Below are positions 6,903 through 19,707 of a DNA stretch of 64,000 bases, piece after piece; within the stretch, counting starts at the first letter, position 1, and each line of letters starts with the position of its first letter. The notes under the pieces were generated by a model. That model was not told the DNA's origin. It saw nothing but the letters and a program-made list of their open reading frames with translations, and did not search any database. Origin of the DNA: Acidithiobacillus caldus ATCC 51756 (GTDB taxonomy: Bacteria > Pseudomonadota > Gammaproteobacteria > Acidithiobacillales > Acidithiobacillaceae); the NCBI RefSeq assembly GCF_000175575.2, contig NZ_CP005986.1:1309549-1373548 (forward strand), written 5' to 3'. Both the position numbers and the translations under genes were made by a program.

Positions 6903-7818
6903 GGGCCGGCTCCTGGGTGTGGTGTACCAGGGCCGCCAGGGCGGCGGATACCAATCGGGCACGGGCTGGGTCGGCGCGCGAGGTCAGTATGATGGGTACG
7001 CGTGCGCCATAGACGATGCCGCCCAGGGTAGCGCCACCCAGATATTCCAGATCCTTGGCCAGAATGTTACCGGAGACGAGATCCGGTACCAGCAGGATAT
7101 CGACATCGCCGGATACTGGACTATGAATACCCTTGATACGAGCGGACTGTGCCGATATGGCATTGTCGAAGGCCAATGGTCCGTCCACCAGGACGCCGGC
7201 TATCTGGCCGCGATCGGCCATCTTGGCAAGACAGGCAGCGTCCACCGTCGACGGGATTGCCGGATTTACCACCTCCACCGCCGACAGTGCCGCCACCTTG
7301 GGCGTTTCCACCTCGAGCACACGGGCAATGGCTGCGGCATTGGCGATAATGGCAGCCTTGGTCATCAGATCCGGAGTGATGTTGATGGCGGCATCGGTGA
7401 TGAGCAACAGCTTGTGGTAGGACTGCAATTCGCAGACAAAGACATGGGAAAGACGACCGTTACCGCGTAATTTGGCCAGAATGGGGTGGAGAAAGGCGTC
7501 ACTGTGGATATGGCCTTTCATCAGCGCTACCGCGGCTCTCTGTAGCACGAGATCAACCCCTTTCTCTGCCGCCTGTTCGGCACTGTCGCTGTGGACGATC
7601 TGAAAACTCGGACATTGACCAGAGTCTGCGCCCAAGGCACGTAAAAGACCGCGGATGTGCTCACTGTCACCAATGAGGATTGGATCGATGATGTGGCGCG
7701 ACTTGGCCTCGCAGGCACCGCGCAACACGAACTCCTCGCCAGCATCCACCACCGCTACCGGAATGGCACCCAGGGGCTCCACGCGCTGCAGTAGTTCGTC
7801 GAAATGGGCAAAAGCCAT
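6895..7818 (-). CDS. phosphate acetyl/butyryltransferase-family protein
   Basis: Belongs to the Pta/Ptb family that interconverts acyl-CoA and acyl phosphate. Recognisable segments include ALMKGHIHSDAFLHPIL near residue 100, LLITDAAINITPDL, and the C-terminal VPDLVSGNILAKDLEYL phosphate-site motif with GGIVYGARVPIILTSRAD. About 307 residues, the short single-domain form. The ATG at 7818 follows GAGGAGAG. It is the first gene of a five-gene operon with very short or overlapping junctions down to pyk at 2060. No acetate or butyrate kinase gene is next to it, so whether the substrate is acetyl-, propionyl- or butyryl-CoA is open. Confidence 0.83.
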   Translation of the reverse strand: MAFAHFDELLQRVEPLGAIPVAVVDAGEEFVLRGACEAKSRHIIDPILIGDSEHIRGLLRALGADSGQCPSFQIVHSDSAEQAAEKGVDLVLQRAAVALMKGHIHSDAFLHPILAKLRGNGRLSHVFVCELQSYHKLLLITDAAINITPDLMTKAAIIANAAAIARVLEVETPKVAALSAVEVVNPAIPSTVDAACLAKMADRGQIAGVLVDGPLAFDNAISAQSARIKGIHSPVSGDVDILLVPDLVSGNILAKDLEYLGGATLGGIVYGARVPIILTSRADPARARLVSAALAALVHHTQEPARG

Positions 7819-8207
7819 TTTTCTCTCCTCGCCAGACCGCAATGGTCACTGACAGTGTAGGCAAGGCCCCGAGCTCCTGCCAGAAAAACCATCGCCAGGG
7901 CGTTGGCAATCGACTTCCACAACCAGCCTCTTCCCGCTGGACGCGGCCGCGTTTGACAGCGTCCAGGCTGCGTGCTAGGTTCTTGCCACTTTCATTGGCA
8001 GGAGGTTCCCCCGAACTTGGACAGTAGCCCTGGTTCAACGGTCAGCATCTGACTGGGTGTCCTCTGGCAGTTCCTGCCTTGGTCGCCCGGTTCTCGGGTG
8101 GCCGTAGAAAATTTCCTGTTTTGTGGTTGGGCCGCGCCTGGCGCGGAATTGTGCCCGCTTCGGTTTTCGCCGAACTCGGGTATTGCGTCTTGAGTCGTCT
8201 GGAGAAA
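7819..8207. other. divergent intergenic region, no gene recognised
   Basis: GC-rich spacer between the divergent carbon operon and the porin/CorA operon. Both promoters must lie here, but I found no convincing -35/-10 pair. Several overlapping ORFs have no ribosome-binding site and no protein-like composition. The 3' half may be transcribed as the start of the long leader of the porin operon. Confidence 0.4.
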
Positions 8208-8288
8208 ATGGCGGTGGATCCGGATCCTGAACCGGAACCCATGGCGGTCGCGGTGGCGGCCGGGGTTCCTGTGGTCAACATCTTGTAA
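8208..8288 (+). CDS. putative Mg2+-sensing leader peptide (26 aa, MAVDPDPEPEP...)
   Basis: A short ORF with ATG at 8208 and TAA at 8286-8288, preceded by GGAG at 8201-8204 (spacing short, 3 nt). The peptide begins MAVDPDPEPEP: four acidic-residue/proline pairs in a row within the first 11 codons. In Salmonella the mgtL leader (MEPDPTP...) uses just such an acidic/proline run, which destabilises the translating ribosome when Mg2+ is low. Here the next gene is a porin followed by five CorA paralogues. The stop codon lies 2 nt before the first arm of a strong hairpin. This is an inference from sequence logic; the peptide has not been shown to be made, and an in-frame ORF extends upstream without a clear start. 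Confidence 0.5.
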   Translation: MAVDPDPEPEPMAVAVAAGVPVVNIL

Positions 8289-8290
8289 GC

Positions 8291-8336
8291 GCTCCCTCGG
8301 CCCGCGACCGCGCATGCCGATGGGAGCATCGGGAGG
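8291..8336 (+). promoter_or_regulatory. two mutually exclusive RNA hairpins before the oprB ribosome-binding site
   Basis: Hairpin A pairs GCTCCCTCGG (8291-8300) with CCGA (8317-8320) and GGGAGC (8322-8327), leaving T8321 bulged. Hairpin B pairs CCGATG (8317-8322) with CATCGG (8327-8332) around a GGAG loop. They share 8317-8327 and cannot coexist. Hairpin B takes up the first two G of the oprB Shine-Dalgarno GGGAGG (8331-8336). A ribosome stopped at the leader UAA (8286-8288) would cover the 5' arm of hairpin A and favour B. Early ribosome release would leave A free to form and the ribosome-binding site exposed. The pairing is read from the sequence; the switch is a model. Confidence 0.5.
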
Positions 8337-8340
8337 CGTC

Positions 8341-9465
8341 ATGCGCTGGTATGGCTGGGTAATGAGGCTGGCACTGTTCTGTGCCGTGTGGCCAAAGGTA
8401 GCATTGGCGGCCAACTTTTGGTCGGGGTTTTCGCCGCACGCCCACTTCGCGGGAGAGTTCGTCGGCAACTTTGCCGGTGGACTTGCGCGCGGCGGCACCG
8501 GCACGGCCTATTTCGATGGTGGCCTGGATTGGGACAGCACGGCCGCCGGCGCTTACCCAGGCGGCAAGTTCGTCCTCCGTTATCTCGCCGTCGATACCGG
8601 CGAGCCCGATCAGCTCTACGTAGGGGATGTGCAGGGGGTGAGCAACCTCACCACCGATTACAACATCAGCCGGCTCTATAAGCTCTATTATCGTCAGAGC
8701 CTAGGCCCGGTAACCGCCCGTCTGGGGCTGCTCAACGCCAACGACTATTTCGACACCGTCGGTACCGCTAGCTATCTGCTGTGTCCGTCCTACGGCATCT
8801 TCCCCGTCTGGAGCAGCAATCTGCCGGGCTCGAGCACCTACCCCTTTTCGAGCCTCGGCGCGATGGTAGCCCTTGGTGGTGACCATCACCTGCTGGAAGC
8901 CGGCGTCTTCGGTGCCGATGCCATGCACCCTTATCGCCAGCCCTTCACCCATGGTGCGCTCATGCTGCTGCAGTACACCCAGGCTGGCAAACTGGGGGCA
9001 GGCGACTACACCATCAAACTCGGTGCTTTTCGCAACCGCCAAAACGCCCAACTTGCTCCCCGACTCGGACCGCAGACCAGCGGCTTTTTCGGGGCGATGG
9101 AGTATCGCTTCGACGCGCTGGGCCTCAATTGGGGGGCTTTTCTGGTGGGCGGTGGCGCACCCAAGCCTGTCAATGCCGTGCCATGGTATGCAGGGGCGGG
9201 GCTGCGTGTGAAAAATTGGTTCCCGAACCATCCCGACGACGTGCTCTCGGCGGGCGCTTCCCGCGTCAGCCTGCGTGGTCTGCCCCATGCCGAAACCAAC
9301 TACGAAGTGACGGGTATTTTCGCGCTCGGTCCGGGGGTGAAGCTGCAACCGGATCTGCAGGTCATCGTGCATCCGGGAGGTCAGCTGCCCACAGCCCTGG
9401 TGGGCATCCTGCGCGTCGATATCGATCTGGTCCAGTGGGCAAAAAGTCAAGGAGTAGCGCTATGA
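8341..9465 (+). CDS. OprB-family outer membrane porin
   Basis: About 374 residues. The N-terminus MRWYGWVMRLALFCAVWPKVALA is a signal peptide with cleavage expected after ALA. The mature part is rich in alternating aromatic beta-strands (FVLRYLAVDTG, YKLYYRQSLG, ARLGLLNANDYFDTVG) and matches the carbohydrate-selective porin OprB pattern, including the late YEVTGIFALGPGVKLQPDLQVIVHPGG. The ATG at 8341 follows GGGAGGCGTC. The stop overlaps the first CorA start by 4 bp (ATGA), so translation is probably coupled. Family knowledge suggests sugar uptake, but its place at the head of a CorA operon suggests outer-membrane entry of cations or small polyanions. The specificity cannot be read from sequence. 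Confidence 0.85.
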   Translation: MRWYGWVMRLALFCAVWPKVALAANFWSGFSPHAHFAGEFVGNFAGGLARGGTGTAYFDGGLDWDSTAAGAYPGGKFVLRYLAVDTGEPDQLYVGDVQGVSNLTTDYNISRLYKLYYRQSLGPVTARLGLLNANDYFDTVGTASYLLCPSYGIFPVWSSNLPGSSTYPFSSLGAMVALGGDHHLLEAGVFGADAMHPYRQPFTHGALMLLQYTQAGKLGAGDYTIKLGAFRNRQNAQLAPRLGPQTSGFFGAMEYRFDALGLNWGAFLVGGGAPKPVNAVPWYAGAGLRVKNWFPNHPDDVLSAGASRVSLRGLPHAETNYEVTGIFALGPGVKLQPDLQVIVHPGGQLPTALVGILRVDIDLVQWAKSQGVAL

Positions 9466-10397
9466 GCACCGTGCTCAAGGACACGCCAGAGGCCTTTCCA
9501 CAGGGCCCGCAGCGCCTGACGACGGCAGGCTGGATCTGGCTGTATCAGCCCGATCCCGTCAGCATCCAGAGGCTTGCCGCCGAGTTGGATGTGGACGAGG
9601 ACTTCCTCTTCGATGTCCTCGACCCGGACGAAAATCCGCGCCTGCAGCGGGAGGAAGATCACCTTCTGGGAATCCTGCCAGTACCGGTTCGTCGGGACGA
9701 GGACGGTGGCTGGCTGTTGCGGCCCATGGGCTTCATCCTGCAAGAAGAAACCCTGGTCACCATCAGCACCGTCCAATGGACCTTTCTCCAGGATCTCTTT
9801 TCGCGAGCGAGCACCGAGGCCGGGTCTGCCGGCGGACAACGGCGTAACCTCCTGCGTATCGTCCAGGCCATCACGGAAATCTACGAGCATGCTCTGGATG
9901 ACCTGGTCCAACGGATGGCGCAGCTGGAAGATCTGCTGGACAGCACCCAAAGCAACGACGACCTGTTCCGGTTGCTGGAGGTGGGGAAGGCCGCCCTGCA
10001 GATGCACGCGGCCCTGGCCGGCAACGTCGCCGTGATCTTCAAGCTCTCGCGCCACCACCGATTGGCCTGGAAAGACGAAGAAAAGCGTCGCCTCAATCTG
10101 TTGGTAGCCGATCTGCAGGCAGTACATGAACGTGCCGAGGTGCTCTCCCGGACCATGAACAGCACCATGGACGCCTATGGTGGCATGGTGCAGAACAACA
10201 TCAACCACGGCCTCAAGGTACTGACCACCCTGGCGCTGGTGCTCTACATCCCCGCCCTGATGGCTACCCTGTACGGCGTCAACCCGCCCATACCTTTGCA
10301 GGACAAGCCCTGGATCTTCTGGGTCGTCGTCCTGGGCAGCTTCGCCCTGTCTGGGCTGATGGCTGCGGTATTCCGTTATCGTCTCCGCTGGATCTGA
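9462..10397 (+). CDS. CorA-family divalent-cation transporter paralogue 1 (GVN variant)
   Basis: A protein of about 311 residues: soluble N-terminal domain of mixed alpha/beta type, long helical stalk, two C-terminal membrane helices (VLTTLALVLYIPALMATLYG and WIFWVVVLGSFALSGLMAAVF) and a basic tail. The signature at the end of TM1 reads YGVNPPIP, with Met of the canonical YGMN changed to Val. In the CorA family GMN sits at the periplasmic mouth of the pentameric pore and selects hydrated Mg2+. Start ATG at 9462 overlaps the porin stop. First of five tandem CorA genes; with Gly and Asn kept it may still form a pore alone or with its neighbours. Confidence 0.88.
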   Translation: MSTVLKDTPEAFPQGPQRLTTAGWIWLYQPDPVSIQRLAAELDVDEDFLFDVLDPDENPRLQREEDHLLGILPVPVRRDEDGGWLLRPMGFILQEETLVTISTVQWTFLQDLFSRASTEAGSAGGQRRNLLRIVQAITEIYEHALDDLVQRMAQLEDLLDSTQSNDDLFRLLEVGKAALQMHAALAGNVAVIFKLSRHHRLAWKDEEKRRLNLLVADLQAVHERAEVLSRTMNSTMDAYGGMVQNNINHGLKVLTTLALVLYIPALMATLYGVNPPIPLQDKPWIFWVVVLGSFALSGLMAAVFRYRLRWI

Positions 10398-10415
10398 ACG
10401 CTGGGAGCACACGCC

Positions 10416-11348
10416 ATGTCGGAAACCCTCAAACTCGTCGCCAACCGTAGCAACACCGAGGAGGGCTGCGCCAATTGGCAGCATCGCAACCTAGCCGATG
10501 ACCAGAGCCTTGCCGCCACAGCAGAGGAATTCCGTCTCAGTGAAGCCTTCCTGCGCCAGTGTCTGGATCCCGACGAGATTCCGCACATCGATCGCGAGGG
10601 CGAACACATCCTCCTCCTGCTCCAGGCGCCTTGGATCTACGAGGAGACCACCGCCGCCCTGTTCGTGGATACGGTGCCCCTGGGAATTCTTCTGCATCCG
10701 GCAGAAATCGTCACCATCAGCGCCAAGCCCCTGGCCCTCTGGGATCGACTACACCGGGAACTGTGTGATGACGCGGCACCCAAACTGCAGAGAGAGGCCT
10801 TTCTCGCGCGTTTCTTCACGGTGCTCGCCCGAGAATTCCTGCATGCCATCGATCGTCTGGAGGCGCAACTGGAAACGGCCAAGGAGCAGCTGCGTCGCTC
10901 CCAGAGCAATGCGGAATTCTTCCGCCTGCTGTCTTTGCAGAAGAGCCTCATTTATCTGACGGCAGCGCTGCGCGGCAACCTGGCCACGGGAGAGCGCCTG
11001 CTGCATTCCCCGCGCTGGCAAGGCAGTGCCGAGGAGCAGGATCAGCTGCGCGATGCCCTGGAGGATCTGCGTCAGGCACGGGATACCGCCGAGCTCATGG
11101 CCAGCACCACCACGAATGCCATGGATGCCTTTGCCGGCACCCTGCAAAACAACATCACCGTCGCCATTCGCGTGGTGACGGCCTGGACGGTGGTCATTAC
11201 CGTCCCCATAGCCGTGATTTCCATCATGGCCATGAACACGCCCTTGCCCCTGCACGACTGGCCCTATGCCTGGCCTGTGCTCATGGGCGGTTCCTTTGTG
11301 GCTTCGGGTCTGCTCTATATCGCCCTACGCCGCAGTCACTGGCTGTGA
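10416..11348 (+). CDS. CorA-family divalent-cation transporter paralogue 2 (AMN variant)
   Basis: About 310 residues with the CorA layout: N-terminal domain, coiled stalk (RLEAQLETAKEQLRRSQSNAEFFRLL), then two membrane helices. The pore signature reads MAMNTPLP: Gly is replaced by Ala while Met and Asn stay. Own Shine-Dalgarno GGGAG, 18 bp after the previous stop. An acidic substrate-facing loop with a final Glu (GMNxxxMPE) is absent; the loop is short and proline-rich as in paralogues 1 and 3. Inner-membrane location is certain from the two helices, but the ion and direction are not known. A change of the GMN glycine usually impairs transport in characterised CorA proteins, so a subunit role is possible. 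Confidence 0.87.
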   Translation: MSETLKLVANRSNTEEGCANWQHRNLADDQSLAATAEEFRLSEAFLRQCLDPDEIPHIDREGEHILLLLQAPWIYEETTAALFVDTVPLGILLHPAEIVTISAKPLALWDRLHRELCDDAAPKLQREAFLARFFTVLAREFLHAIDRLEAQLETAKEQLRRSQSNAEFFRLLSLQKSLIYLTAALRGNLATGERLLHSPRWQGSAEEQDQLRDALEDLRQARDTAELMASTTTNAMDAFAGTLQNNITVAIRVVTAWTVVITVPIAVISIMAMNTPLPLHDWPYAWPVLMGGSFVASGLLYIALRRSHWL

Positions 11349-11373
11349 GCGCAGCTGTTCTGGAGGAGTGACG

Positions 11374-12321
11374 ATGCAGGAAAGAAAACACGACGGCCTG
11401 GATGCCGGAGCGGAAATCCCCCTCAGCCCCGATCCCACCGGAAAGGAACGGCGCTGGCTCAGCATATCCCAACCGGAACCGGCAGAACTCGGCCGGCTTG
11501 GGCAGCAATTGGGGGTAGACCCGGGCTTTCTGGGTGATACCCTGGATCGGCACGAGCGCCCTAGCCTGCACCGGGAGGGAGAGACCACCATCCTTCTGCT
11601 GCGCGTGCCACGAATTTCCTCAGCGCCGCCGGACCCCTCTTGGGAAACGGTACCGCTGGGCATCCTCCTGCAGAAGTGGCAACTCGTGACCATCGAGACC
11701 CGACACTTTGGCTTTCTGGAGCAATTACGCGTACGACTCGGCAAGCGCGCCCGTCGCATCCGTCTGCGCGAAGCCATGGCGGAACTCCTGCAGGCCATCG
11801 CCCAGGAATACTTGCGCTCACTGCACCAGGTAAAAAAGGGGATGGACACGGTGGAGCACGATCTGCGTGCATCCCAGAACAACGACGACTTCTACCGCAT
11901 GGTCTCGTTGCAGAATGCCCTGACCCACTTTGCCGCCTCCCTACGCGGTAACATTGGTGTGTTGCAGCGGCTCTTGCAGATGCCGGTCTTCCGGGACGAC
12001 CAGGAAGATCTTGAGGATGTCGCCGATGCCCTCGTGGACCTGCAACAAGCCCGAGAAATGGCCGAGCTCTACGCCGCCACGCTGACAGATCTTCTGGATG
12101 CCTACGTGGGCGTGCTGCAGAACAATATCGCCAACCGCGTCAAGAAACTCACGGCCTGGACGGTGGTTTTGGCCGTATCCCTCATGTCCACGAGTCTTTA
12201 TGGCATGAATGTGCCTCTGCCCTGGCAGCATTGGCCATATATCACGCCGACCTTGGTGGGTGGGGGCTTCCTCATCGCCGCGGCAATCTACGTCTATTTT
12301 CGTCGTCACGACTGGATCTGA
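11374..12321 (+). CDS. CorA-family divalent-cation transporter paralogue 3 (canonical GMN)
   Basis: About 315 residues. The only one of the five with an intact signature: YGMNVPLP at the end of the first membrane helix. The N-terminal domain starts with a variable acidic/basic stretch. The stalk is helical (YLRSLHQVKKGMDTVEHDLRASQNNDD) and ends in VGVLQNNIANRVKKLTAWTVVL leading into TM1. The tail YFRRHDWI is close to the RYRLRWI tail of paralogue 1. ATG at 11374 has GGAGGAG at good spacing. If any member works alone as a Mg2+ or other divalent-cation channel, it is this one. ZntB-like or Co2+/Ni2+ transport are alternatives. Confidence 0.9.
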   Translation: MQERKHDGLDAGAEIPLSPDPTGKERRWLSISQPEPAELGRLGQQLGVDPGFLGDTLDRHERPSLHREGETTILLLRVPRISSAPPDPSWETVPLGILLQKWQLVTIETRHFGFLEQLRVRLGKRARRIRLREAMAELLQAIAQEYLRSLHQVKKGMDTVEHDLRASQNNDDFYRMVSLQNALTHFAASLRGNIGVLQRLLQMPVFRDDQEDLEDVADALVDLQQAREMAELYAATLTDLLDAYVGVLQNNIANRVKKLTAWTVVLAVSLMSTSLYGMNVPLPWQHWPYITPTLVGGGFLIAAAIYVYFRRHDWI

Positions 12322-12332
12322 GGAGGATGGTC

Positions 12333-13274
12333 ATGAGCGCCTGGTTCTTTCACGACGACCAAGGTTGGCAGGACGTGGACGCCTATGCGGGCCCCGGGGT
12401 TTATCTGCTGGATCCCGCCGACAGCCAAATGGCCGCGGTGCTGGACGCCGCCCTAGGTGCCGAGCTGCCGCAACTGGCACTGCCCGTCCAGCCTGGGCGC
12501 CGGCCGCCGCGTCTGGTCTTGGCTGCCCACGGCGTGTTGGCTCTGCGCCTGCACGTGGTCTTTCCCCGGCGTGAGCCGGAACTACGGCGCAGCGAGGAGG
12601 AGCAGCTGCAGACGCGTCTCGTCTGGGGTCGCGATCATCTGATTCTGGTAGCCCCGCAACAGCACTGGCGGCGCATCGTCCGCGACAGCCTGGAGCTGGA
12701 CCCCCATGCACCCCAGGACAAGATCCTGCAGAGGATATTGCTGACGGCCATCTACAGTCACGACAGCGCAACCCAACGCATCATCGCGGAGCTACGCGAA
12801 CTGCGAAACGCCTTACGCAGTTCCCTGAACAACCGGGAGATGCGGCGGATCGTGGTCCTCAATCGTCGTCTGGGAGAACTCGTGGTTTCCATTCGCGACC
12901 TGGGCCTGACGCTGCGCAGTCTACGCGCAGAATTGGGCGACGCCGACCCCTTGCGCGACCGTATCGACGAGATTTACGACGAGCAACGGCGCATCGAGGA
13001 GATTCTGACCCTGATCTGGGATCGCTACCTTGGAGTAACCAACGCGTACGCCGGTATCATCCAGAACAACGCCCACACCATCATGAAGGTCATGACCGCG
13101 TACCTTGCCTTCCTGATGGTGCCCATAGCGCTGATCATGCCCTTCCACATGAACACCGTACTGCCCATGGAGCACTTCCACTATGCCTGGTATGTGCTCC
13201 TGCTCTACAGCTTCGGGACCTCGGGCTGGTTCTTTTTCCAGTGGGGACGCAAGCGCGGCTTTTTTCATCTGTGA
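12333..13274 (+). CDS. CorA-family divalent-cation transporter paralogue 4 (HMN variant)
   Basis: About 313 residues and the most divergent N-terminal half of the set, starting MSAWFFHDDQGWQDVDAY. The C-terminal half is clearly CorA: IIQNNAHTIMKVMTAYLAFLM into TM1, then PFHMNTVLPMEHF, TM2, and a basic tail. The tyrosine-glycine of YGMN is replaced by Phe-His, adding a potentially metal-binding or protonatable side chain at the pore mouth. AGGAGG lies 6 nt before the ATG at 12333; an earlier ATG inside the ribosome-binding site is unlikely. It starts 11 bp after paralogue 3. A role as modified pore subunit or cation sensor is inference. Confidence 0.85.
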   Translation: MSAWFFHDDQGWQDVDAYAGPGVYLLDPADSQMAAVLDAALGAELPQLALPVQPGRRPPRLVLAAHGVLALRLHVVFPRREPELRRSEEEQLQTRLVWGRDHLILVAPQQHWRRIVRDSLELDPHAPQDKILQRILLTAIYSHDSATQRIIAELRELRNALRSSLNNREMRRIVVLNRRLGELVVSIRDLGLTLRSLRAELGDADPLRDRIDEIYDEQRRIEEILTLIWDRYLGVTNAYAGIIQNNAHTIMKVMTAYLAFLMVPIALIMPFHMNTVLPMEHFHYAWYVLLLYSFGTSGWFFFQWGRKRGFFHL

Positions 13275-13284
13275 GGAGTGCGAC

Positions 13285-14202
13285 ATGCTTGAGATCGTTC
13301 GCAATGCTTTTCTGACGGGTAACGACCGGGCGCGCGACTGGATGAAAATCGCTGCACCCTCGCCCACGGAGTTGAGCCAGGCGGCCACGACCATCCGGGC
13401 GGAGGAAAGCTTCCTGCGTCGTCGCCTCCAGGGCGGACCGGTGCGCCCCGTGGTGGAAGACTCGGGCTTTCTGACTTTTCAGATGCTGGTACCGGCCCAT
13501 GCGGCTCGGGCGGAGGGTGTGGATTTTCACCTGGTTCCCCTCAACATCTTTCTGGTGCCCCACTATTTCGTGACCTTGAGTGCAGAACCCCTCGCTTTCC
13601 TCGATACCATCATCCGCCCCGAGGCGCCCATCCGCCGTTGGGAACTCATCCTGCGTATCGCCAAGGAAATCGCGCTACGTTACGTGCATATGGCCAGGGA
13701 CGTAGCCCGGGAAACCGAAAGTGTCGAGGCAGAGCTCAAGGTGGCACAGCGCCACCACGTCATCTACCGGGCGCTGGCCATCAACGACCGCCTGCTGCAG
13801 CTGGACATGGGCCTGCTGCAGCTGGAATACGTCATCGACGAAATGCGCGAGCGCATGCCCAAGGACTCGCCAAGCTTCATGGAGGAGTTTACCGATGCCC
13901 GCATCGAGATCCGGCAGGCGCGGGAGCAGGTGGATCTGGAACAACAGACCCTCAACGAAATCATGGATGCCTACACCTACATCATCCACAACAACGTCAA
14001 CCATATTTTCAAATTCATGGCGGCGTTGATCATCCTCGCCTCCATACCCATCATCGTCTGCGATTCGGCTTCCATGAACGTGCCCTTGGGCAGCTTTCGG
14101 ACCTCGTCCTGGGGCTTTCCCCTGGATGTCGGTTTCCTGCTGCTGGTAGAGGCCATCACCGCCTGGCTCTTCTACCGCAAGGGCTGGCTTACCCTCGGCT
14201 GA
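13285..14202 (+). CDS. CorA-family divalent-cation transporter paralogue 5 (SMN variant)
   Basis: About 305 residues, with a shorter N-terminal domain than its neighbours. The stalk and TM1 approach are conserved (YTYIIHNNVNHIFKFMAALIILASIPII) and the signature is ASMNVPLG: Gly of GMN is Ser and the proline-rich loop ends in Gly. TM1 carries a Cys and Asp just before the signature (IVCDSASMN), polar residues unusual in a CorA pore. GAGGAG precedes the ATG at 13285, 10 bp after paralogue 4. It is the last gene of the operon; the next gene is convergent and ends 22 bp away. No clear rho-independent terminator is visible between them. Confidence 0.85.
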   Translation: MLEIVRNAFLTGNDRARDWMKIAAPSPTELSQAATTIRAEESFLRRRLQGGPVRPVVEDSGFLTFQMLVPAHAARAEGVDFHLVPLNIFLVPHYFVTLSAEPLAFLDTIIRPEAPIRRWELILRIAKEIALRYVHMARDVARETESVEAELKVAQRHHVIYRALAINDRLLQLDMGLLQLEYVIDEMRERMPKDSPSFMEEFTDARIEIRQAREQVDLEQQTLNEIMDAYTYIIHNNVNHIFKFMAALIILASIPIIVCDSASMNVPLGSFRTSSWGFPLDVGFLLLVEAITAWLFYRKGWLTLG

Positions 14203-16384: not shown

Positions 16385-16447
16385 GCTAGACCTCGGGTGT
16401 TTTCCCGCCATTATGGCACGGTAAGGATCGAAGGGAAGTGACTGCCA

Positions 16448-16732
16448 TCACAGCTCAGCCCACAAGACGACACTTGTCGCCAGCGGGATGAGATTCAACA
16501 GCGCACCGTGTCGGTTGAGCCAAGTCGAGCGCCAGCACAATCCGAGCGTCGTCACAAAACCGACGAAGACCACGATCGGCTTAACGGTGGTCAGTGAATG
16601 GACCAGTAGCACCGATGCCATCGCCCAAGCACCCAAGGGCAACGCGGCGATGGGCACTCAGTGATCGGGCAGAATGGCGTGGGGTAGGGCGACCAGAAAG
16701 GCCGCAGCGAGGAGCATCCAAAGTGCAGACAT
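16448..16732 (-). pseudogene. decayed small membrane protein with in-frame TGA (HxxxxDH-type permease remnant)
   Basis: Translation from the ATG at 16732 gives MSALWMLLAAAFLVALPHAILPDH, then TGA, and continues in the same frame VPIAALPLGAWAMASVLLVH and on to a stop at 16448. The HAILPDH pattern followed by a second hydrophobic helix resembles NicO/RcnA-like and related HxxxxDH membrane proteins, where Trp would be expected at the TGA position (one base change from TGG). The reading frame is otherwise open over about 94 codons but is short of any complete permease. I read it as a truncated pseudogene. An alternative start after the TGA would give only a 69-residue peptide. Confidence 0.5.
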
Positions 16733-16875
16733 CAACCGCCTAGGACCCGGTGTCGAGGGCATGGACGCGCTTCGGCGCGGGTGAAAGCTTAGGCGAAAGA
16801 GCGGCCGCGGAGCGCACCATGCCTTGCACGCCCGAGGCTACTCCAGTATAGTTCTGCGCTCACCGAAAGGTGCAC

Positions 16876-18126: not shown

Positions 18127-18131
18127 CGACG

Positions 18132-18425
18132 ATGGACATCCAATTCAGTCGCTATGACACGGTAGACTACCTTCAGACCGAGGAAGACATGGTGGCTTAT
18201 CTCGATGCGGTGATGGAAGACGGCGACCCTGCATTGATTGCCGCAGCGCTGGGGGACATAGCCCGCGCCCGCAATCTCAGCCGCCTCGCCCGAGAAGTCG
18301 GAATGAGCCGCCAGGGGCTGGACAAGGCCCTTTCGGGCAAAGGCAACCCCAGCTTGGCTACGGTCCTCAAGGTCGCCAAGGCGCTCGGGCTAAGACTGGC
18401 CTTTCAAACAGCCAGACAAGGTTAA
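18132..18425 (+). CDS. HigA-type antitoxin, Xre-family HTH
   Basis: 97 residues. An N-terminal toxin-binding part (YDTVDYLQTEEDMVAYLDAVMEDG) precedes a helix-turn-helix in ARARNLSRLAREVGMSRQGLDKALSGKGNPSLATVLKVAKALGLRL, as in putative addiction-module antidote proteins. It should neutralise the upstream toxin and repress the operon by binding the palindromes at 17781-17829. The ATG at 18132 lies 5 bp after the toxin stop, within range of GGAG at the toxin 3' end, so the antitoxin, unlike the toxin, has a normal ribosome-binding site. Confidence 0.86.
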   Translation: MDIQFSRYDTVDYLQTEEDMVAYLDAVMEDGDPALIAAALGDIARARNLSRLAREVGMSRQGLDKALSGKGNPSLATVLKVAKALGLRLAFQTARQG

Positions 18426-18558
18426 TTTTCCCGAAGGCCCCAGATAGAGAGCAGTGAGCGAACGATTGCGCCAATGCTGGCATCGTCAACGCTGGCGCTA
18501 GATGTCGCACAATACCATTTCGCCGAGTACTACTTCAAAATGGTGTTCGGCCTACTAA

Positions 18559-19707
18559 GGAGTCTCTGATTTAGCCATCTGATAGAATGGGCTGACCGAG
18601 TAGCGAGGAGATGCCATCCATGACCGGACAGATGACCTTTGCCGAGGAGCCCAGCCTGTCGCGACGCCGCAAGCAGACCAAGCGAGAACGCTTTCTGGCC
18701 GAGATGGATGCCGTGGTTCCCTGGGCCAGGCTTGTGGCCTTGATCGAGCCGCACTATCCCAAGGGTGGCAGTGGCCGCAAGCCCATGCCCTTGGAGCGGA
18801 TGCTGCGTATCCACTTTCTCCAGCAATGGTTCGGCTACTCCGATCCGGGGATGGAAGAGGCCCTGTACGAGGTTCCCCTGCTCCGTCAATTCGTCGGTAT
18901 CGACCTGGGCCGGGACTTCGTTCCTGACGAGACCACGATCCTGAAGTTCCGCCGCTTACTGGAGCGCCATGCGCTTGCTCAGGCCATCTTTGCCGAGGTG
19001 CAGGCGGTGTTGCGGGAGAAAGGGCTCTTTCTGCAGGAGGGCAAGACCGTGGATGCCACCTTGATTCACGCCCCGAGCTCCACCAAGAACCGAGACCGCC
19101 AGCGGGATCCGGAGATGAGCTCCACCAAGAAAGGGAATCAGTGGTATTTCGGGATGAAGGCGCATGTGGCAACGGATCTCCAAGGTATCGTACAGGCGGT
19201 GGACTTCACCGCGGCCAAGGTACCGGATCATCAGCGGCTGGAGGGGCTCCTTACCGGAGAGGAGTCGGTGGTCCTCGCTGACCGGGGCTATGACTATCCC
19301 CAGGTGCATGACACGCTGGTGGCCCGAGGCATACGGAACGCGGTAGCGCGGCGACGCTATCCTGGGCAGAAAACCGGCTTGGCGGCCCTCAAGCGCTACA
19401 ACCGCGCCATTGCCCGGATCCGTGCCCGGGGAGAACACGCCTTCCGGGTGCTGAAGTGCCAATTCGGTTATCAGCGAACCAGATATCGGGGTCTGGCCAA
19501 GAACGGTGCTCAACTGACCACGCTCTTTGCCTTGGCCAATCTGTACATGCTGAGGAGATATCTCCTGGCCGCGTAGGGAGTGGTGTGCCCAATATCCAAT
19601 AATTCTCCAGAAAATGGGGGAATTTGACGGATAAGTGACCTGATAGCAACGTGCTTAGGTCAATACTGGGGACAAGGCGCACCTTTTTAGGCTAGGTCAG
19701 AGCTTCC
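18559..19707 (+). mobile_element. IS5-family element (IS-A, copy 1), complete with target duplication
   Basis: 1149 bp flanked by the direct repeat CTAA (18555-18558 and 19708-19711), which fits the YTAR target rule of IS5. Imperfect terminal inverted repeats: GGAGTCTCTGATTTAGCC on the left and the complement of GGAAGCTCTGACCTAGCC on the right (14 of 18 match). It carries one transposase gene. A second copy lies at 38.5 kb and a fragment at 42.1 kb. Confidence 0.88.
18620..19576 (+). CDS. IS5-family transposase (IS-A, copy 1)
   Basis: 318 residues. N-terminal DUF772-like region (EQ-type PLERMLRIHFLQQWFGYSDPGMEEALYE), then DDE core with VDATLIHAPSSTKNRDRQRDPEM (first Asp), VLADRGYDYPQVH (second Asp, DRGYD) and RARGEHAFRVLKCQFGY holding the catalytic Glu. 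GAGGAG lies 9 nt before the ATG at 18620; an ATG directly against the ribosome-binding site (18611) is less likely. The gene is intact and the element has both ends, so it may still be active. Confidence 0.93.
   Translation: MTGQMTFAEEPSLSRRRKQTKRERFLAEMDAVVPWARLVALIEPHYPKGGSGRKPMPLERMLRIHFLQQWFGYSDPGMEEALYEVPLLRQFVGIDLGRDFVPDETTILKFRRLLERHALAQAIFAEVQAVLREKGLFLQEGKTVDATLIHAPSSTKNRDRQRDPEMSSTKKGNQWYFGMKAHVATDLQGIVQAVDFTAAKVPDHQRLEGLLTGEESVVLADRGYDYPQVHDTLVARGIRNAVARRRYPGQKTGLAALKRYNRAIARIRARGEHAFRVLKCQFGYQRTRYRGLAKNGAQLTTLFALANLYMLRRYLLAA

Follow-up and report, generated by a model that had tools for sequence, protein, structure and literature searches.

A conserved leader with a candidate acidic-proline leader peptide and a structured 5′ element in front of the porin-CorA genes of Acidithiobacillus caldus

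The DNA analysed here (the window) is a stretch of 64,000 nucleotides (nt) of Acidithiobacillus caldus ATCC 51756, the numbering of which is used for all positions, and the element in question is the leader that precedes an OprB-family porin gene and five tandem CorA-family genes (Table 1). The leader is situated on the + strand between the porin gene and a divergent phosphotransacylase-type gene that starts near position 7818. All five CorA proteins scored above the Pfam cut-off for the domain, and their genes are packed head to tail downstream of the porin. The comparison covered two Acidithiobacillus species, namely the window species and its nearest relative, catalogued as Acidithiobacillus sp. 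KMB_Bin03 (G001/L032), in which the gene order of the porin-CorA locus is identical. The start of the porin was set at 8341 because the frame of an upstream ATG runs into a stop codon in the relative. A literature search retrieved no paper on CorA or on Mg2+ regulation in Acidithiobacillus. The leader proved to be conserved and is probably regulatory; it contains a small open reading frame (ORF) with an early acidic-proline run and, further upstream, a structured 5′ element.

The original prediction described a 26-codon ORF beginning MAVDPDPEPEP with a hairpin, A, starting 2 nt past its stop codon, and both were found as described. The orthologous peptide of the relative is MSVDPDPEPEPVVVAFAAAVPLVNVM, which begins MSVDPDPEPEP; the Shine-Dalgarno (SD) sequence, start and stop of the ORF are all kept, and the distance from its start to that of the porin is 133 nt in both species, without an indel. 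The DPDPEPEP run (residues 4-11) is the same in the two peptides despite three synonymous changes among its Pro codons, and eight amino acid changes, mostly conservative, lie outside it. When drift was simulated with the observed number of substitutions, 0.7% of the simulated sequences reached a peptide similarity at least as high as that observed, 1.6% kept DPDPEPEP intact, and 0.08% did both (joint P about 0.0008); the features of the leader had been spotted before these statistics were applied. When 342 kb of family DNA was read in six frames, this ORF and its orthologue alone contained a run of four [DE]P pairs. Across 369 genomes of the class, nine sites matched a DNA pattern consisting of an SD, ATG and three Asp/Glu-Pro pairs, and the seven besides those of the two species were judged by eye to be out of frame. 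These results support a putative leader-peptide role for the conserved ORF. A functionless chance ORF in a GC-rich leader would be compatible with the short spacing between SD and ATG and with the unremarkable overall ratio of synonymous to nonsynonymous changes, but is very improbable given the conservation of the run without indels, at the joint P above, and its uniqueness in the DNA examined. Two other occurrences were rejected: a second DPDPEPDP match in the genome is antisense to a TadE-like coding frame, and the match in genome G021 lies within a 684-codon protein. A second in-frame start, TTG 8190 in the window and ATG in the relative, is seen six codons upstream of the ORF start (8190-8207); the residues separating the two starts differ conservatively (SRLEK in the window vs QRVER in the relative), and the peptide may be 32 residues long.

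Hairpin A, located in the stretch from the ORF stop to the porin SD, is retained in the relative as an uninterrupted stem of 10 base pairs (bp) right after the stop; its diverged 5′ arm has moved by 3 nt, and a U-A pair of the window is replaced by C-G. The shuffle fractions of this hairpin were 0.005 in the window and 0.002 in the relative, and in the substitution simulation none of 3000 window descendants folded as well, the value in the reverse direction being 0.08. Hairpin C, within the ORF, gave shuffle fractions of 0.015 and 0.002 in the two species, and its retention compared with simulated drift had P values of 0.044 and 0.0017. The segment 8200-8380 as a whole was no more stable than its shuffles (z -0.63).

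A different result was obtained for hairpin B, which the original prediction had set against A in a switch governing access to the porin SD. In the window B is present as proposed, in that it excludes A and occupies two G of the porin SD. Four substitutions weaken it from -7.9 kcal/mol in the window to -1.4 kcal/mol in the relative, as random change would. The predicted accessibility of the porin SD in the window was 0.66 with a ribosome at the ORF stop vs 0.27 without a ribosome, which is the wrong direction for the proposed switch, and in the relative the sign was opposite (0.32 vs 0.48). Since hairpin B is lost in the relative and SD access is inconsistent, the A/B switch is unsupported and should be dropped. 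The alignment therefore sided with the original prediction on the acidic-proline run and hairpin A and went against it on hairpin B; a general lack of conservation of ORF and stems, which would have spoken against the whole proposal, was not what we saw. A long-range helix D, pairing 8238-8267 with the region of hairpin A, formed a duplex of -48.6 kcal/mol in the window and was dropped because in the relative it is 13 kcal/mol worse than A plus C. No intrinsic terminator was detected on the + strand, and no tRNA-like element was found.

The loss of hairpin B and of SD masking, with A and C conserved, would suit an explanation in which the leader peptide acts on Rho-dependent termination in the way known from enteric mgtA and corA, and access to the porin SD is irrelevant. 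Efficient translation would then expose a Rho site that abortive translation hides. A weak stretch of C over G around 8254-8331, seen also at the matching place in the relative, is consistent with this; the slight bias never exceeds 0.08 over 60 nt, however, and falls largely within a stable hairpin. We rate a Rho-dependent output as somewhat unlikely.

The leader is longer than the span 8208-8341 originally assigned to it. Its conservation sets in some 220 nt further upstream, at a predicted promoter that was the best + strand candidate in both species, with identical hexamers and a different spacer; a scan with a stricter consensus found no promoter. Sliding-window identity was mostly 73-93% over 7955-8104 and 8195-8269 and fell to 43-67% in the linker around 8105-8194. 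Because the promoter directly precedes the first island (7985-8107), this island would form the extreme 5′ end of the transcript. Two mutually exclusive folds can be drawn for it: one combines helices 1:2 (8019-8034 x 8050-8062) and 3:4 (8081-8089 x 8095-8103), and the alternative consists of helix 2:3 (8051-8062 x 8081-8092). All pairs of both folds are canonical in the two species, the changed pairs being mostly exchanges between G-U and Watson-Crick; the folds are near-equal in energy in the relative and 7 kcal/mol apart in the window species. The consensus fold of the two sequences, refolded for each simulated pair, had a P value of 0.005 on the + strand and 0.147 on the - strand. We prefer this value to that of a fixed-pair test (0/10,000), which is biased because both sequences had served to select the folds. 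The 5′ element is a second conserved, structured and previously undescribed element that the original prediction missed, and it deserves equal attention.

Searches for kin of the 5′ element were negative. No Rfam 15 family matched the leader, M-box and Mg_sensor giving no match at E values up to 5, and a two-sequence model, applied under strict filters to the genome and to 273 further genomes of the class, turned up no second credible copy. One further model match (G000:C1:2581373, 28 bits) lies inside a Gly-rich coding ORF and was judged to be due to chance. As no T-run follows helix 3:4, the element is not an ordinary terminator. It also contains a TTG-started ORF (8017-8052) behind GGAGG, encoding LDSSPGSTVSI in the window and LDSSPGSALII in the relative; the stop is the same in both species and the three codon differences are all nonsynonymous.

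Table 1. Features of the porin-CorA leader and the genes downstream (positions in the window)
Feature	Position	Strand	Remarks
Predicted extended -10 promoter, TTGACA-17-TAGGTT with TG extension	7953..7981	+	transcription start expected near 7988
Structured 5′ element	7985..8107	+	101/123 bases identical between species
Diverged linker between two conserved islands	about 8108..8194	+	43-67% identity
SD of leader ORF, GGAG, 3 nt before ATG	8201..8204	+	identical in relative
Leader ORF, 26 codons, MAVDPDPEPEPMAVAVAAGVPVVNIL; ATG 8208, TAA 8286-8288	8208..8288	+	orthologue in relative, no indel
Hairpin C, inside ORF; 8234-8240 x 8263-8269, inner stem 8245-8251 x 8256-8262	8234..8269	+	
Hairpin A, between ORF stop and porin SD; 8291-8301 x 8316-8327, 11 bp, one bulge	8291..8327	+	
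Hairpin B; 8317-8322 x 8327-8332	8317..8332	+	window only, lost in relative
SD of porin, GGGAGG, 4 nt before ATG 8341	8331..8336	+	GGAGG and spacing same in relative
OprB-family porin gene	8341..9465	+	Pfam OprB 3.5e-13
Five tandem CorA-family genes	9462..14202	+	Pfam CorA 1.5e-43 to 2.5e-18
Limits of the CorA genes	about 9462-10397, 10416-11348, 11374-12321, 12327-13274, 13285-14202	+	

Two other explanations concern the island 7985-8107. It might be conserved as DNA that serves the divergent phosphotransacylase gene as operator or promoter, since this gene and the porin gene share the intergenic region. This is distinctly improbable, since the structure signal is confined to the + strand, the changed pairs swap G-U with Watson-Crick on that strand, and the best conserved promoter, also on the + strand, lies just upstream of the island. 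Alternatively, the island might itself be the main switch, a riboswitch or attenuator alternating between 1:2 plus 3:4 and 2:3, with the small ORF passive or serving as a coupling upstream ORF. It ranks with the best-conserved stretches of the leader, its structure is strand-specific, and both folds are intact in two species at near-equal energy in the relative, all of which would agree with such a role. The lack of a U-tract after 3:4, the failure to find a relative of the element beyond the genus and the conservation of DPDPEPEP, which it leaves unexplained, make it unlikely that the island is the main switch.

We tentatively favor a regulatory leader peptide of the mgtL/mgtQ kind, with the 5′ element as an earlier control step, although we hold this at somewhat less than an even chance. 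Ribosomes would start at 8208 and meet DPDPEPEP at residues 4-11. At low cellular Mg2+ they would tend to drop off on this run, and at high Mg2+ they would reach the stop at 8286. Full translation would melt hairpin C and, on arrival of the ribosome at the stop codon, also the 5′ arm of A, whereas abortive translation would leave both A and C folded. This difference in folding would set the output of the porin and CorA genes, expression being higher upon abortion, and the RNA of 7985-8107 with its two exclusive folds would add a prior step of control. Translation of the ORF, drop-off, the Mg2+ signal and the direction of control are all inferred; the Mg2+ attenuator originally proposed is a plausible candidate. 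The output may be translation of the porin or Rho-dependent transcription, the sequence favoring neither.

The analogy with mgtL and mgtQ draws on work in E. coli and Salmonella, where early acidic repeats in the nascent chain destabilize the ribosome, EttA and bL31 counteract this effect, and translation of mgtL, corL and mgtQ is inversely coupled to expression of mgtA, corA and mgtB, respectively (PMC11282234, PMC11552253, PMC8092293). Experiments have defined the trigger of drop-off as acidic residues that recur, next to each other or one apart, among the first 30 of the chain (PMC11282234). The early Asp/Glu-Pro run of the present ORF agrees with this rule, and bL31 and EttA are both encoded in the genome of the window species. 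The mgtQ ORF of Salmonella mgtCBRU likewise is a short ORF with acidic codons just before a Mg2+ transporter gene, with alternative stem-loops and translation of the next gene as its output (PMC8092293). Unlike the present leader, it has 8 codons, lies between mgtC and mgtB, and its stem masking the ribosome-binding site was shown experimentally (PMC8092293); the present ORF has 26 codons with four D/E-P pairs and a porin-CorA operon as its target, and the masking stem here is not conserved. A conserved SD-masking stem in competition with another stem, as in mgtQ, was accordingly not found at this leader. The mgtL leader of mgtA in Salmonella and E. coli shares an acidic-Pro run at the start of the peptide (EPDP in mgtL, DPDPEPEP here), a long structured 5′ leader and a Mg2+ transporter downstream; it differs in having a P-type ATPase as target and control through Rho and PhoP, and Rfam shows no relation between the two. 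The corL ORF also precedes corA and has mutually exclusive leader structures (PMC11552253), but it contains few Pro or acidic residues and has a single corA downstream, and no relation to the present ORF was seen. M-box and Mg_sensor are likewise 5′ leader RNAs of Mg2+ transporter genes, and neither matches 7985-8107. The nearest working analogue would be mgtQ if the output is translation, and mgtL or corL if it is Rho-dependent.

Several results weigh against the leader-peptide interpretation. The sample consists of only two species. The SD spacing of the leader ORF is short, the ORF as a whole has four synonymous and eight nonsynonymous sense codons and by itself gives no sign of coding selection, and the peptide tail taken alone was not significant in the drift simulation (P 0.17). 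In folds computed for a ribosome on the acidic run, for one at the stop and for ribosome-free RNA, the porin SD was neither consistently exposed nor consistently masked. Mg2+ as the cargo is uncertain as well, because the canonical GMN motif is missing from four of the five CorA proteins: the motifs at this position are GVN, AMN, GMN, HMN and SMN, with GMN in gene 3 only. Finally, the CorA clusters of the other genera of the family have neither a leader ORF with an acidic-proline run nor the 5′ element.

These clusters bear on the origin of the arrangement. Within the family, most matching members of the other two genera carry a cluster of four CorA paralogues (types 1, 2/3, 4 and 5) with no porin in front; GVN is retained in type 1 and GMN in type 3 family-wide, and outside the present genus type 5 has AMN and type 4 HMM or HME. 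In genus 2 the cluster is preceded by a short leader and a promoter of its own. Some 100 nt ahead of the first corA in this genus (L087-L100), a promoter-like TTTACA is followed by TATAAA or TATAAG and then by a conserved GGCTCCGTCC-like stretch. Homologues of the porin sit elsewhere, one of them adjoining an Nramp gene, and no leader ORF was found at other porin loci. Since the other genera have the CorA cluster without the porin and the leader, the porin, the 5′ element and the ORF were probably joined to the cluster in the present genus. For common descent with enteric mgtL or corL we found neither an Rfam match nor a credible second instance of the pattern in the 369 genomes of the class, and the sequence comparisons would fit an independent, convergent origin rather than descent from the enteric leaders.

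Nramp and MgtC genes adjoin the CorA genes in convergent orientation. Upstream of mgtC, remnants resembling an RcnA/UreH-type nickel/cobalt exporter are present at 16440-16740 on the - strand, and the relative (L032) has an exporter-like reading frame at about 18130-19047, partly masked, with a His-rich repeat.

CorA functions as a pentamer, and for the five proteins with their differing motifs a mixed pentamer is therefore conceivable. The fullest version of the proposal would be a tandem ion-sensing leader independent of the enteric ones, in which an undescribed divalent-cation riboswitch (7985-8107) and, after it, a drop-off peptide together control the porin and five non-identical CorA proteins, possibly forming such a mixed pentamer; we consider this quite unlikely. 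Sensing of Mg2+ through drop-off on acidic-proline codons has so far been worked out in enteric bacteria. If our reading is true, the porin-CorA leader would be an independent case in extreme acidophiles, placed before CorA genes rather than an ATPase gene, which would imply that the principle evolves repeatedly and that such leaders could be sought by their codon signature. The 5′ element at 7985-8107 would in addition be a candidate riboswitch.
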